Assembly (NCBI GenBank): GCA_020852515.1
Contig: JADZAS010000016.1
Location: 312,155-376,154, forward strand
Direction: 5' to 3'
Origin: Phycisphaerales bacterium
GTDB lineage: Bacteria > Planctomycetota > Phycisphaerae > Phycisphaerales > UBA5793
Length of the DNA stretch: 64,000 nucleotides
The notes beneath the pieces were generated by a model, which saw nothing but the letters and a program-made list of their open reading frames with translations, was not told the DNA's origin and ran no database searches. This document shows positions 29,295 through 34,112 of the stretch, in pieces. Position numbers and translations under genes: made by a program. How positions within the stretch are numbered: position 1 is the stretch's first letter; the number at the start of each line of letters is the position of its first letter.

Positions 29295-29366
29295 GCGGGT
29301 GTAGCTCAGTGGTAGAGCGTCACGTTGCCAACGTGAAAGTCGTGAGTTCGAATCTCATCACCCGCT
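29295..29366 (+). tRNA. tRNA-Gly (anticodon GCC)
   Basis: Complete cloverleaf: acceptor GCGGGTG pairs with CACCCGC; D arm with AGTGGTA loop; anticodon stem TCACG/CGTGA with loop TTGCCAA (GCC at 29327-29329); T arm with TTCGAAT loop; discriminator T. The 3' CCA is not encoded. GCC reads GGC and GGT, which dominate glycine codons in this GC-rich sequence. Confidence 0.97.
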
Positions 29367-29466: not shown

Positions 29467-31389
29467 ATGACTGATTTGCTGCGCAACCTCGTCGGCCGCA
29501 TCAGGCGACTGAATCTCGACCTCGGCCGGGACTGGGTGCTCATCATCTACGGCGCGATCATCGGCACGCTGACGGCCGCCGGCGCGGTCGGCTTCGCCAA
29601 GGCGCTGCACTGGACCGAGCATCTCTGCTACGAGCAGCAGCGATCCTGGCCGATCTGGCTGCTTCCCCTACTGCCCATGGCCGGGGCGCTCGTAACCGGG
29701 ATCCTCGTTCAGACCTTTGCCAAAGACGCCGAAGGCCACGGCGTACCGCAGGTTATCGACGCCATCGCCCGGCGCGGCGGCAAGATCTCCTGGAAAGTGG
29801 GCGTCGTCAAAGTCCTTGCCTCGATTGCCACCGTCGGCTCGGGCGGCTCGGCCGGAGCGGAGGGGCCGATCGTGCAGATCGGCTCGACGTCCGGCTCGGT
29901 CTTCGGGCAGATCGCGCGAGTCACGCGTATTGATCTGAGCACTCTGGTCGGCTGCGGCGCTGCCGCCGGGATCGCTTCGATCTTCAACGCGCCTATTACA
30001 GGCGTGCTGTTCGCTCTTGAGATCCTGCTGCGCGACTTCTCGCTCAAGACGTTCACCCCGATCATGGTCGCCAGCGTGTTTTCCACTGCGGTGACGCAGG
30101 CGCTGCTGCACAACAAGGATGCGATCTTTGCCGTCGAACTGACCGGTTATGAATTTACCTTTGCCGAGATGCCCAGTTACGTGCTGCTGGGCCTGGTCTG
30201 CGTACTGGTGAGCGTCGGTATGACGCGCCTGCTCCACTTCGCGGAGGATCAGTTCGCAAAAGTGAAAATGCCGCGCGTGTTGCTGCCGGTGCTGGGCGCG
30301 GCGCTGCTGGGCATCACCGGAATCATCTGGGTGCTGCTCATGCGGGGCCCCTACAACGCCAACCAGCACGTGCCGCCGTTCTACGGCAACGGCTACCCCA
30401 CCATCGTCCATCTCATCGAGCCACGAACCTACGAGCCTCAGCCACTGGCCGCGCCGGCGGCAGATATCGAGCGCGTGCAGACGGAGATCGCCGTTCGGAA
30501 TGATGAGCCGGACACGGTGGACGACCGAGCCGACGACGCAGCCGCCGAGGCCGATGCGCCGCCGCTGCTCATCAGCGTTCTCGTGCTGCTGACGCTGTTC
30601 AAAGCACTGGGCACCTGCCTGACGCTGGGCTCGGGCGGATCCGGCGGAGTGTTCGCGCCGAGCCTGTACATCGGCGCGACGACGGGCGCAGCGTTCGGCC
30701 TCATTCTCGAACGGCTCTCGCTCATACCCGCTGGCGTGACGCCCGCTTCCTATGCCCTCGTCGGCATGGCCGCCGTGATCGCAGGCACGACCTTCGCGCC
30801 GCTCACGGCGATTCTGCTGCTGTTCGAACTGACCCGCGAGCCGTTTGTCATGCTACCGGCAATGCTCACGGCCATCATCGCGGCCATCGGCTCGCACCTG
30901 TGGATGCGCGACTCAATCTACACGATGAAATTGCGCCAGGCGGGCGTGCTGCTCGGCGGCGGGCGCGACCTGACCATCATGCGCCGCGTGCAGGCCCGCA
31001 CCGTGCCGCCGACGCCCCTGCCCAGCGAGCCGATCTATCCGTCTGATCCGCTGTCCAAACTCATCGCCATGCACATGCCGCGCACGGCTCCGGACTTCGT
31101 CGTCGTCGATGAACACGGCGCTTATCTCGGCATGGTAACGGGCGAAGACCTGCGCACGGCGCTGGTCGATCGCGAGGCCATCCCCCTGCTGCTGGTTGCT
31201 GAACTGCTGCGCACGGATCTGCCGACGATCGATCCTGAAGAAACGCTCGACACGGTTCTCGACAAGTTCGCCCAACACGACGTGGCGAGCCTGTGCCTGC
31301 TGGCGCAGCGCAACCCGAGCCAGCCGCTCGGCCTGATCACGCGCGCGAAGGTCATTCGCTGCTACCAGGAGGCCATCGCGGCCTCGTAG
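29467..31389 (+). CDS. ClC-family anion channel/transporter with CBS pair
   Basis: 640 residues from ATG 29467; an upstream TTG at the tRNA end is a shadow start. The selectivity signatures are present: GSGGSAGAEGPIVQIG with gating Glu E132, and GSGGSGGVFAPSLYIG. At the position of the proton glutamate (E203 in the E. coli protein) there is Ile (I186, in FNAPITGVLFALEI), and the central Ser of GSGIP is His (GHGVP). An acidic insertion (about 330-365) lies between membrane segments. Two CBS motifs occupy about 530-630. The residue pattern suggests a channel-like rather than proton-coupled protein. Confidence 0.9.
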   Translation: MTDLLRNLVGRIRRLNLDLGRDWVLIIYGAIIGTLTAAGAVGFAKALHWTEHLCYEQQRSWPIWLLPLLPMAGALVTGILVQTFAKDAEGHGVPQVIDAIARRGGKISWKVGVVKVLASIATVGSGGSAGAEGPIVQIGSTSGSVFGQIARVTRIDLSTLVGCGAAAGIASIFNAPITGVLFALEILLRDFSLKTFTPIMVASVFSTAVTQALLHNKDAIFAVELTGYEFTFAEMPSYVLLGLVCVLVSVGMTRLLHFAEDQFAKVKMPRVLLPVLGAALLGITGIIWVLLMRGPYNANQHVPPFYGNGYPTIVHLIEPRTYEPQPLAAPAADIERVQTEIAVRNDEPDTVDDRADDAAAEADAPPLLISVLVLLTLFKALGTCLTLGSGGSGGVFAPSLYIGATTGAAFGLILERLSLIPAGVTPASYALVGMAAVIAGTTFAPLTAILLLFELTREPFVMLPAMLTAIIAAIGSHLWMRDSIYTMKLRQAGVLLGGGRDLTIMRRVQARTVPPTPLPSEPIYPSDPLSKLIAMHMPRTAPDFVVVDEHGAYLGMVTGEDLRTALVDREAIPLLLVAELLRTDLPTIDPEETLDTVLDKFAQHDVASLCLLAQRNPSQPLGLITRAKVIRCYQEAIAAS

Positions 31390-31401
31390 GCGAACTGCCG
31401 C

Positions 31402-31429
31402 TTGACGGCCGCCGCCGCAAGGCTATCCT
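31402..31429 (+). promoter_or_regulatory. Putative promoter of the Met leader and metB-hom
   Basis: -35 TTGACG (31402-31407, 5 of 6), 16-bp spacer, -10 TATCCT (31424-31429, 4 of 6). The expected transcription start is at about 31436-31438, so the leader ORF may be read leaderless from the second ATG at 31438. Confidence 0.45.
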
Positions 31430-31431
31430 CG

Positions 31432-31536
31432 ATGCCGATGGTTGATCGCCTTCACATCGCGACGGACATGATGATGTCCATGCCCAGCCCGGGCGCGGGA
31501 TTCGAATCCTGCGGCTGGTTGGGCGTCGCTCGCTGA
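31432..31536 (+). CDS. Candidate Met-rich leader peptide upstream of metB
   Basis: A 34-codon ORF starting ATGCCGATG and ending TGA at 31534, with AAGG upstream. Met occurs at codons 1, 3, 13, 14, 15 and 17, and the cluster Met-Met-Met-Ser-Met lies just before a strong hairpin (31484-31518). A run of regulatory codons followed by competing hairpins in front of the matching biosynthetic genes is the layout of an attenuation leader peptide. metB-hom are methionine/homoserine-branch genes, so the match is apt. That the ORF is translated is inference from sequence. If transcription begins at about 31436, the first ATG is skipped and the peptide has 32 residues. Confidence 0.55.
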   Translation: MPMVDRLHIATDMMMSMPSPGAGFESCGWLGVAR

Positions 31537-31641
31537 TCGACCGTTCCCCACCACCGCAATGACTCGATTCCCCCGTCCGGGCCTGCACCGGACCGCGTTG
31601 TGCTTCTGCCTTCAGCACTCCCGAACAAGGGGAATCGAATC
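31464..31641 (+). promoter_or_regulatory. Attenuator-like structured leader of metB-hom
   Basis: Elements in order: hairpin GGACAT/ATGTCC (31464-31479) over the Met codons; hairpin CCAGCC/GGCTGG (31484-31518) enclosing the stem GCGGGA/TCCTGC; the sequestering strand 31561-31573; an inner hairpin GTCCGG/CCGGAC (31575-31593); and the metB ribosome-binding strand 31629-31641. Strand 31561-31573 pairs with 31629-31641 at 12 of 13 positions, burying AAGGGG next to the metB ATG. Segment 31497-31508 can pair with 31561-31572 at 10 of 12 positions, an alternative that would free the ribosome binding site. The pairings were made by eye; no folding energies were computed. Confidence 0.5.
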
Positions 31642-32823
31642 ATGTCTTACCGCTTTGACACGCTGGCGATCCACGCCGGCCAGCCCAACGACGCCCTCAC
31701 CGGCGCCGTCGTTACGCCCATCTACCAGACCACCACCTACGCCCAGCATGAACTTGGCGGACAGCCCGACTACTGCTACTCGCGCACGGGCAATCCCGGG
31801 CGCACGGCCCTCGAGTCCAGCCTGGCCGCACTCGAAGGCGCGCGATACGGGCTCGCGTTTGCGAGCGGGCTCGCGGCCGTCAACGCCCTGCTCCAGACCC
31901 TCAGCGCGGGCGATCATGTCGTCGCTTCGCAGGATCTCTACGGCGGGTGCTACCGCATCTTCACGAAGATCTTCTCGCGTTTCGGCGTCACCTTCTCGCT
32001 CATCGACACGACGGACGTGCGCAACGTCGAGCGGGCCATCACTGGCGCGACCCGGCTACTCTGGCTCGAAACACCGTCGAATCCGCTGCTGCGGATCACG
32101 GATATCCAGGCGTGCTGCGCCGTCGCGCGAGCGCGCGGCATCCGCAGCGTCGTGGACAACACGTTTGCCACGCCGGTGCATCAGCAGCCGCTGCAACTCG
32201 GGGCCGACATCGTCCTGCACTCGACGACCAAGTACATTGGCGGGCACTGCGATGTGCTCGGCGGAGCCCTGGTGACCAACGACGAAGAGACATTCGCCGA
32301 ATTGAAGTTCGTGCAGAATGCAACCGGCGCCGTTCCGGGGCCGCAGGAGTGCTTCCTGCTGCTGCGCGGCATCAAGACGCTCTCGCTGCGCGTGCGCCAG
32401 CACGCCGCCAATGCCCAGCGCATCGCCGAACATCTCGAAGCGCACCCAGAGGTGCGACGCGTGATCTATCCGGGGCTGGGCAGTCACCCGCAGCATGAAC
32501 TCGCGAAGCGCCAGGCGTCGGGCTTCGGCGCCGTCGTCAGCGTCGAATTCGAAGGCGGCATCGAGCGGGTGAGGTCGCTCATCGGCCAGTTGCGCCTCTG
32601 GCCGCTGGCCGAGAGCCTCGGCGGCGTGAAGTCGCTGCTGTGCCACCCCGCGACCATGACCCACGCCGCGGTCGAGCCGGCCGAGCGTCGTCGCATCGGA
32701 ATCGGCGACGGCCTCTTGCGCCTCTCGGTCGGCATCGAGGACGTGCACGACCTCATCGACGACCTCGATGCAGCGCTGGAGCAGTCGGCGCGGGCCGGGC
32801 GGGAAGAGCAGGTGTCGGCATGA
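31642..32823 (+). CDS. metB: Cystathionine gamma-synthase / gamma-lyase family enzyme
   Basis: 393 residues from ATG 31642. This PLP enzyme joins an activated homoserine with cysteine to cystathionine, or runs the reverse lyase reaction. The PLP lysine sits in HSTTKYIGGHCDVLGG; YSRTGNPGRTALE and VVDNTFATP are the other fold signatures. The fold family also includes MetC and MetZ, so the exact reaction is assigned by context: the next gene is hom, which overlaps by 4 bp. AAGGGG lies 10 bp upstream but is predicted to be buried in a leader structure, implying translational control. Confidence 0.9.
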   Translation: MSYRFDTLAIHAGQPNDALTGAVVTPIYQTTTYAQHELGGQPDYCYSRTGNPGRTALESSLAALEGARYGLAFASGLAAVNALLQTLSAGDHVVASQDLYGGCYRIFTKIFSRFGVTFSLIDTTDVRNVERAITGATRLLWLETPSNPLLRITDIQACCAVARARGIRSVVDNTFATPVHQQPLQLGADIVLHSTTKYIGGHCDVLGGALVTNDEETFAELKFVQNATGAVPGPQECFLLLRGIKTLSLRVRQHAANAQRIAEHLEAHPEVRRVIYPGLGSHPQHELAKRQASGFGAVVSVEFEGGIERVRSLIGQLRLWPLAESLGGVKSLLCHPATMTHAAVEPAERRRIGIGDGLLRLSVGIEDVHDLIDDLDAALEQSARAGREEQVSA

Positions 32824-34112
32824 TCCGCCTGCTCGATACACCCGTATCAATATCGAAGGCGATCAGCCGCATCGCCATCCTCGGGTGCGGCAACGTCGGC
32901 TCGGAGGTGGTCCGGCAACTGCAGTCGCGGTCGTCGATCGAGGTCGTCTCTGTGCTCGTGCGCGATCTCGCACGCGAGCGGCCCGCGCCGCGCGACCTGC
33001 TGACCGATTCATTTGACGACGTACTCGTGAGTCGGCCTGACGTTGTGATCGAACTGCTTGGCGGCGTCGAGCCCGCGCGCACGCATATCGAAGCGGCGCT
33101 GCAGCGCGGCGTACCGGTCGTGACGGCCAACAAGTCGGTCATCGCGCGGCATGGCGAATCGCTGCACCGAATCGCCGGCACGCGAGGCGTTCACTTGCGG
33201 TACGAAGCCGCGGTCGGCGCCGGCGTGCCGGTGCTCGCCGCGCTCGACCAGCTGCGCGGCGACCGGATCAGCGCGATTCGCGGCATCGTCAACGGCACGT
33301 GCAATTTCATCCTCGAACGCGTTGAGAAGACGCGCTGTTCGATCTCTGAGGCGCTGGTCCAGGCCCAGGGCTTCGGATACGCCGAACCGGATCCCTCGGC
33401 CGACATCACCGGCCGCGACAGCGCGGAGAAACTGTGCGTTCTGGCGCACCGGGCCGGCTGGGGATGGCCGCGCGTTCAGGACGTGCACACGACCGGGATC
33501 GAATCGATCACGGCCGAGGACGTGCAGTGCGCGCTGCGGCAGCACTGCGTTATTCGCCTGGTCGCCGAGGCGCAGTGCGATGGCAATGGGCGCCTGTCGC
33601 TGCGCGTTGGGCCCACTCTCGTTCCGCGCGGTCATGCGCTGGCGGCGGCGAGGGGATGCGAGAATGCGTTCGAGATCATCGCGAAGCACGCCGGAGCGAT
33701 TCGACTGCACGGCCCCGGCGCCGGAGCAAAGCCGACCGCCAGCGCGGTCATCAGCGACCTGCTCGCGATGGTGCCTGCGCGCCGTCACGCAGCGGCGCGC
33801 GAAGCGACGTCCACAGCCGCCCAGCCGCTGGAAGAAGTTCCCGCGATGCGTCGGCACTACATCCGCGCTGTCGCGCCGGGCAGAGCCTTCTCTCCGGAGC
33901 GGGTATTCGCGGCCCTGAATCTGCATGGAATCGATGTGGACACGACCGAGCTCGTGGATCAGCGCGCCGTGGTGCACACCATGCCCGTCGGCCGCGATCG
34001 CGCCCTGGCGCTGGCGCGTCATCTCGTCAATGATGAGATGCGCCACTGCCTCGTGGCGCCTTATGTCGAGCCGGACGACCGGCCCGTCAGCCGCTGGAGG
34101 ACGCGTTCGTAG
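32820..34112 (+). CDS. hom: Homoserine dehydrogenase
   Basis: 430 residues from ATG 32820, which overlaps the metB stop (ATGA). It reduces aspartate semialdehyde to homoserine, the branch point to Thr and Met. NAD(P) loop GCGNVGSEVV, VTANKSVIA, GIVNGTCNFIL and the GPGAGAKPTASAVISDLL signature are present. A C-terminal ACT-like domain (from about 340, HYIRAVAPG onward) suggests feedback regulation, perhaps by Thr. Its pairing with metB points to supply of the methionine branch. The 3' end overlaps the convergent glycosyltransferase gene by 52 bp. Confidence 0.94.
   Translation: MIRLLDTPVSISKAISRIAILGCGNVGSEVVRQLQSRSSIEVVSVLVRDLARERPAPRDLLTDSFDDVLVSRPDVVIELLGGVEPARTHIEAALQRGVPVVTANKSVIARHGESLHRIAGTRGVHLRYEAAVGAGVPVLAALDQLRGDRISAIRGIVNGTCNFILERVEKTRCSISEALVQAQGFGYAEPDPSADITGRDSAEKLCVLAHRAGWGWPRVQDVHTTGIESITAEDVQCALRQHCVIRLVAEAQCDGNGRLSLRVGPTLVPRGHALAAARGCENAFEIIAKHAGAIRLHGPGAGAKPTASAVISDLLAMVPARRHAAAREATSTAAQPLEEVPAMRRHYIRAVAPGRAFSPERVFAALNLHGIDVDTTELVDQRAVVHTMPVGRDRALALARHLVNDEMRHCLVAPYVEPDDRPVSRWRTRS

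Follow-up and report, generated by a model that had tools for sequence, protein, structure and literature searches.

Background

Attenuators that rely on ribosome stalling at particular codons are textbook cases for Trp, His, Leu, Ile/Val, Thr and Phe, and bacterial control of methionine has been described via MetJ, SAM riboswitches and T-boxes. In Arabidopsis, the CGS1/MTO1 system relies on nascent-peptide arrest inside the coding sequence, which leads to mRNA decay. The leader described here, located upstream of the metB and hom genes of a planctomycete, would share with the trp, his, thr, leu and ilv leaders a short ORF carrying end-product codons and mutually exclusive folds set by ribosome position, but its codons are Met codons, its output would be sequestration of the Shine-Dalgarno (SD) sequence with no intrinsic terminator, and the strand of the leader hairpin that would switch is the 5′ and not the 3′ one. 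With CGS1/MTO1, it would share control of cystathionine gamma-synthase at the level of translation according to Met/SAM status, whereas the plant system is not an upstream codon-stalling leader.

Leaderless polycysteine upstream ORFs are described in mycobacteria (Canestrari et al. 2020, doi 10.1111/mmi.14498, as cited in PMC9094748), and candidate mycobacterial leaderless Cys-codon leader ORFs are found in PMC4633059; such ORFs resemble our locus by a leaderless short ORF, clustered pathway codons and no obvious terminator, but they use Cys codons and belong to Actinobacteria. Actinobacterial leader peptides without terminators are also documented, with no conserved terminator hairpin, and no conserved RNA structure was reported for actinobacterial methionine operons (PMC1262725). 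In Sinorhizobium meliloti, the trpL leader ORF begins at the first transcribed nucleotide (PMC7298713) but uses Trp codons and transcription attenuation with a terminator. SAM riboswitches, such as the SAM-II element preceding metA/metZ in S. meliloti (PMC9373788), likewise control Met biosynthesis through the 5′ RNA but by direct ligand binding, and none matches here. In Streptomyces lividans, a leaderless Met-dependent leader peptide, metL, was proposed upstream of metNIQ (PMC8079986); it differs from our locus since it precedes a transporter, its peptide (MSTTSDRTPATEATTTPGARCMCRRMCAF) carries the Met codons near its end and no switch was defined, and we saw no sequence resemblance to the planctomycete leader. 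This metL proposal is the only Met leader that we found in the open-access literature (subscription papers lie largely outside it), where we also found no Met-codon attenuation leader described in planctomycetes, as the initial annotation of this DNA had supposed. Thus, the class of mechanism is known, and the Met-x-Met/metB-hom element in Planctomycetota appears to be undescribed. Altogether, our results make it very probable that the metB-hom leader is a ribosome-mediated, probably leaderless, translational attenuator based on Met codons.

The leader ORF and its genes

The locus lies within a stretch of 64,000 nucleotides (hereafter the window), in which the following features were delineated (all on the plus strand):

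31402–31429 (+): sigma-70-type promoter, TTGACG-16 nt-TATCCT, the sole promoter-like site in 31380–31720
31438–31536 (+): leader ORF of 32 codons (MVDRLHIATDMMMSMPSPGAGFESCGWLGVAR, then stop), probably leaderless, its ATG kept in the genus and with a counterpart in the other leaders
31468–31482 (+): putative regulatory Met codons, ATG-ATG-ATG-TCC-ATG, four of them internal Met codons
31474–31482 (+): conserved core Met-x-Met, its final Met codon separated from the A element by 4 nt in every leader
31642–32823 (+): metB-type gene, Cys/Met metabolism PLP enzyme (Pfam PF01053), closest to cystathionine gamma-synthase
32820–34112 (+): hom, homoserine dehydrogenase (NCBIfam NF004976, above cut-off)

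The best NCBIfam model for metB, which starts at ATG 31642, was cystathionine gamma-synthase with 505.8 bits, just under the cut-off of 513. Its stop overlaps the hom start as ATGA (32820–32823), so that hom is probably translationally coupled and control at the metB SD would reach it; in 12 of the examined leader loci, hom comes after metB. Upstream, a tRNA gene (29295–29366, +) is the sole Rfam match at gathering score in the window.

The ATG codons of the ORF lie at 31432, 31438, 31468, 31471, 31474 and 31480 and its stop (TGA) at 31534–31536, so the six Met codons claimed within the first 17 are indeed there. The start proposed at ATG 31432 does not hold, since this codon is present only in the two closest genomes; the conserved start is ATG 31438, which the five genomes of the genus all keep and which has a counterpart in every other leader. 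The cluster is singular in its surroundings: across both strands of the 64 kb, the open frames of 25 codons or more contain 110,165 five-codon windows, and a single one, that of the leader, held at least four Met codons. Two minus-strand open frames over the leader (31452–31643 and 31423–31554) arise from inverted repeats and show no gene signs.

The promoter-like pair at 31402–31429 pointed out by the initial annotation is the only sigma-70-like site of the region (0.0 expected), and its distance from the ORF is a shared property of the leaders. Indeed, 18 of the 20 leaders have TTGAC 36–41 nt upstream of their ATG (46 nt in G559 and 68 nt in G546), and in the leaders read by eye the −10-like hexamer ends ~8–14 nt before this ATG. 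With such a spacing, transcripts would begin on the ATG or within a few nt upstream of it, leaving no space for an SD, which agrees with the earlier suggestion of a transcript starting at or near the ORF, possibly leaderless from ATG 31438. The leader start is thus probably leaderless or near-leaderless.

Competing RNA structures

What was initially annotated as one strong hairpin following the Met codons is indeed structured, but consists of two structures, namely hp1, which lies within the ORF's 3′ half, and a sequestor (~31559–31643) that takes in the metB SD and AUG. Their elements are the following:

31482–31524 (+): leader hairpin hp1, A:A′ (MFE and RNAalifold)
31487–31508 (+): A-ext, 5′ strand of the antisequestor, GCCCGGGCGCGGGATTCGAATC, within the ORF and forming the 5′ arm of hp1; best partner 31561–31582
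31559–31573 (+): 5′ strand of the sequestor, ATGACTCGATTCCCC, pairing with 31629–31643
31561–31582 (+): putative switch element (D′+C), predicted partner of A-ext in the ON state and of the metB SD region in the OFF state
31627–31632 (+): SD-like AAGGGG of metB, read from the sequence, within the sequestor and paired in the MFE fold
31629–31643 (+): 3′ strand of the sequestor, GGGGAATCGAATCAT, reaching into the metB start codon

The predicted folding of the region was more stable than all 200 shuffles, both for 31390–31660 (z −4.2) and for 31540–31645 (z −3.5). Over 13 leaders, RNAalifold gave 13 consensus pairs for hp1, 3 of which have double compensatory changes, and the sequestor pairing is retained in other lineages despite different sequences. 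The A element, which usually starts with GCCCG, is found 4 nt past the last Met codon. The long-range antisequestor pairing, which did not figure in the initial annotation, would be the switch: according to RNAduplex, the best spacer partners of A-ext and of the SD region overlap by 7–18 nt in 15/15 leaders, and in 13 of these 15 the A-ext duplex was stronger than with shuffled spacers (z −2.2 to −7.1), G273 and G100 being the exceptions. An ungapped complementarity score missed f19b and G032, whose duplexes have internal loops, and RNAduplex recovered both. The C element was not found in G559, and the SD sequestor is weak in G535, G546 and G586.

Judged from sequence, both alternative duplexes co-evolve. 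Pair types at A-ext positions 6, 9, 14–18 and 20–23 are exchanged on both sides between lineages, these counts leaning towards pairing because the pairs were picked per sequence by RNAduplex. An independent test, in which pairing partners were swapped between lineages (11 representatives, 100,000 permutations), gave a native A-ext:spacer sum of −414 kcal/mol against −345 +/− 13 for permuted partners and a native SD:spacer sum of −232 kcal/mol against −182 +/− 11; none of the 100,000 permutations reached the native value in either case, a result that is somewhat optimistic since related lineages are among the 11. The leaders thus display mutually exclusive RNA structures with covariation.

No terminator-like site, hence no intrinsic terminator before the first gene, was found in 31380–31720, and consequently control is most likely translational, with the SD and start codon sequestered in the OFF fold by a pairing that co-evolves. 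The initial proposal of ribosome-mediated attenuation therefore stands as regards the Met-codon leader and its alternative folds, and is refined to SD sequestration, most likely not termination.

Ribosome position and the proposed mechanism

The effect of the ribosome was modelled by masking the mRNA beneath it at each codon and computing the antisequestor probability under equilibrium folding. In most lineages, the antisequestor was allowed in the model up to Met-x-Met and fell to ~0 within about 7 codons past it. In the genome under study (G000), its modelled probability rose from 0.26 on ribosome-free RNA to 0.84–0.98 when a ribosome occupied the Met codons, and the corresponding rises were from 0.00 to 0.98–0.99 in G001 and from 0.00 to as much as 0.91 in G003. 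Within the genus, this rise is specific to the Met codons, although G004 and G001 also allow the antisequestor at several N-terminal codons. The results were much the same with a footprint edge of +9 to +11 nt and weaker in several genomes at +13 or +15; as exceptions, G273 and G100 never form the antisequestor and G002 does so weakly. In most lineages outside the genus, the antisequestor already prevails in the ribosome-free fold, and the model there has to be that translation past Met-x-Met actively breaks it when Met is plentiful; the modelled opening of the SD changes little, far less than the antisequestor pairing. Since the antisequestor returns with a ribosome at the stop codon, release must be quick. 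A first idea, in which A:C pairing would be the OFF state under starvation, was dropped because the longer duplexes (A-ext with D′+C) and the ribosome masks reverse its direction.

We infer from these elements the translation of the leader, the stalling on uncharged Met-tRNA and the direction of the Met response, as follows. The transcript would have its 5′ end on ATG 31438 or a few nt upstream, and the ribosome would start the leader without an SD. When Met-tRNA is scarce, it would wait at the Met codons with its leading edge just short of A-ext, blocking the base of hp1 and leaving A-ext free to pair with 31561–31582; the antisequestor thus formed would open the metB SD and AUG, so that metB would be translated and hom with it through the ATGA coupling. 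When Met-tRNA is plentiful, the ribosome would move on to cover A-ext, the antisequestor would be lost, and 31559–31573 would pair with the SD region, resulting in low translation.

Distribution and evolution of the leader

The initial annotation called for a search of relatives for upstream short ORFs with conserved Met codons and an otherwise variable sequence, and this is what we found upstream of metB/hom in relatives. In total, 20 genomes (our own and 19 other planctomycetes, from several families and some from outside the class) carry the leader directly 5′ of a metB homologue. The first 15, from four families including our genus, were found through metB protein similarity without use of the Met motif: metB orthologues of the genus (87–94% identity) and of one genome of another family (77%) each have a short ORF at the same place, and searching the whole class with metB brought in G307, from a third family, as well as eight genomes of a fourth (f19). 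All 15 leaders, those of close relatives included, keep Met-x-Met, with the last Met codon 4 nt before GCCCG in every one; the outcome named in the initial annotation as refuting its reading, close relatives devoid of an ORF with clustered Met codons, was therefore not observed. The peptides (for example MHTRTAMMMSMAMPSPGAGVDSCVRLGATRV, MSLRFANLMDMPMSMSSPGTGVNLRVRLGRSG, MRYGFITTQPQTMAMRRPSTGSNLCRVERIG and MQSGTKTIYSAIVPSDEAHLSMIMPSPSTGVYDLCAGFRGA) have little in common beyond Met-x-Met followed by x-x-P-(G/S)-(T/A). Over the 20 leaders, Met-x-Met is found in all, and the reading frame is kept though 6–26 residues precede it and the N-termini differ in sequence and length, a combination of clustered end-product codons, conserved as codons, with a variable remainder of the peptide. 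A Cys codon recurs several codons past Met-x-Met (as in GFESC, DLC and ILC) in the leaders of G000–G003, G032, f19 and G546; cystathionine gamma-synthase uses cysteine as its other substrate, but this codon, which falls within the 3′ arm of hp1, may be structural.

Pattern searches extended this set. The pattern ATGNNNATGYSNMGNCCSRGYRCGGG matched 13 of 347 class genomes, once in each and always 5′ of metB, and its reversed control gave no match. A covariance model together with a one-mismatch scan of 392 phylum genomes revealed three more leaders outside the class (G546, G535 and G559), most other matches being rejected as lying inside long ORFs, and a family scan added that of G723. Searching 367 genomes of the phylum with metB and no motif yielded one more, divergent leader in G586 (MLCGIVSMIMRSPGRNCLNGCVIL; locus L164, minus strand, ~1325–1500 of the oriented locus). 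In 84,980 species, the strict DNA pattern was found in 39 stretches, of which four are in frame, all in the genus; the other 35 were rejected as out of frame or within long ORFs. Also rejected were L107, antisense to a biotin carboxylase-like gene, and the leader-like MSMSTPGTGAG of L145–L147 (G580, G472 and G589), which runs antisense within a conserved GntR/MocR-like regulator gene.

When 65 metB homologues were placed in a tree, all 19 leader-bearing genes then known formed one clade (support 0.995), a count that excludes G586, which falls in the neighbouring clade. This indicates that the leader travels with this metB lineage, and since the upstream neighbours vary even inside the genus, synteny alone does not explain its conservation. 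No leader was seen at metB paralogues beside a CBS-domain gene, in class members at 55–57% metB identity or, G586 excepted, at the sister-clade metBs that follow aspartokinase-like genes. The four other fully read members of the G586 clade have no leader; among that clade's other members, three follow an aspartokinase-like gene and have none. The G586 case hints that the leader may predate the main clade or have been transferred.

Alternative explanations

A SAM, Met or SAH riboswitch, in which the conserved RNA (A, A′ and C) would bind a metabolite and sequester the SD while the ORF is incidental, would fit the highly conserved CCCGRGYRCGG core, the pseudoknot-capable A:C pairing beside the SD sequestor and the Met gene downstream. 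We nevertheless consider it unlikely, because an aptamer would need neither a reading frame kept despite very different N-termini, nor a start at the expected RNA 5′ end, nor a Met-x-Met with a variable middle codon, and because the long antisequestor is free to vary apart from its pairing. In addition, no Rfam match lies above cut-off in the region (a permissive search returned only chance microRNA matches, far below it), neither the other SAM riboswitch classes nor a T-box leader gave an Rfam covariance match in the window, and the SAM-I riboswitch was absent from all 13 carrier genomes tested. The strongly conserved core could reflect another RNA function. Even less likely is that Met-x-Met-(P/R)-x-P itself stalls the ribosome at high Met/SAM, like the plant MTO1 segment, so that A is covered and the SD sequestered. 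Arrest just past Met-x-Met would give the OFF state at high Met by the same RNA logic, and Met-x-Met-x-x-P-(G/S)-(T/A) is conserved; plain codon stalling suffices, though, conservation does not extend to the residues upstream of Met-x-Met, and RNA pairing accounts for the P-G/S-T/A codons, with their near-invariant third positions, a coincidence of residues and pairing just past Met-x-Met that confounds the test of this reading.

That the short ORF is conserved as a small protein with its own function and no cis regulation is most improbable, since neither its N- nor its C-terminus is conserved as protein, no Pfam or NCBIfam model matches it, conservation peaks where the RNA pairs and the ORF always stands 5′ of metB. 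Short ORFs being common, a chance Met cluster beside chance hairpins has to be named too, but it is scarcely credible for a cluster unique in the window, conserved in 20 genomes and with co-evolving pairings. Finally, the Met-codon attenuator may do more than respond to elongation: we hold it unlikely that the leader is also a Met-/SAM-sensing arrest peptide convergent with plant CGS1/MTO1, or that its leaderless AUG also reads initiator fMet-tRNA. In the latter case, initiation and elongation on one RNA would both report methionine supply.

Implications

If the attenuator is as we propose, amino acid attenuation extends to a new pair of amino acid and genes and reaches a phylum without described cases, as far as we found. 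The leader would give a clean test of Met-tRNA sensing when Met also serves initiation, and the annotation of metB-hom operons would gain a defined RNA element.
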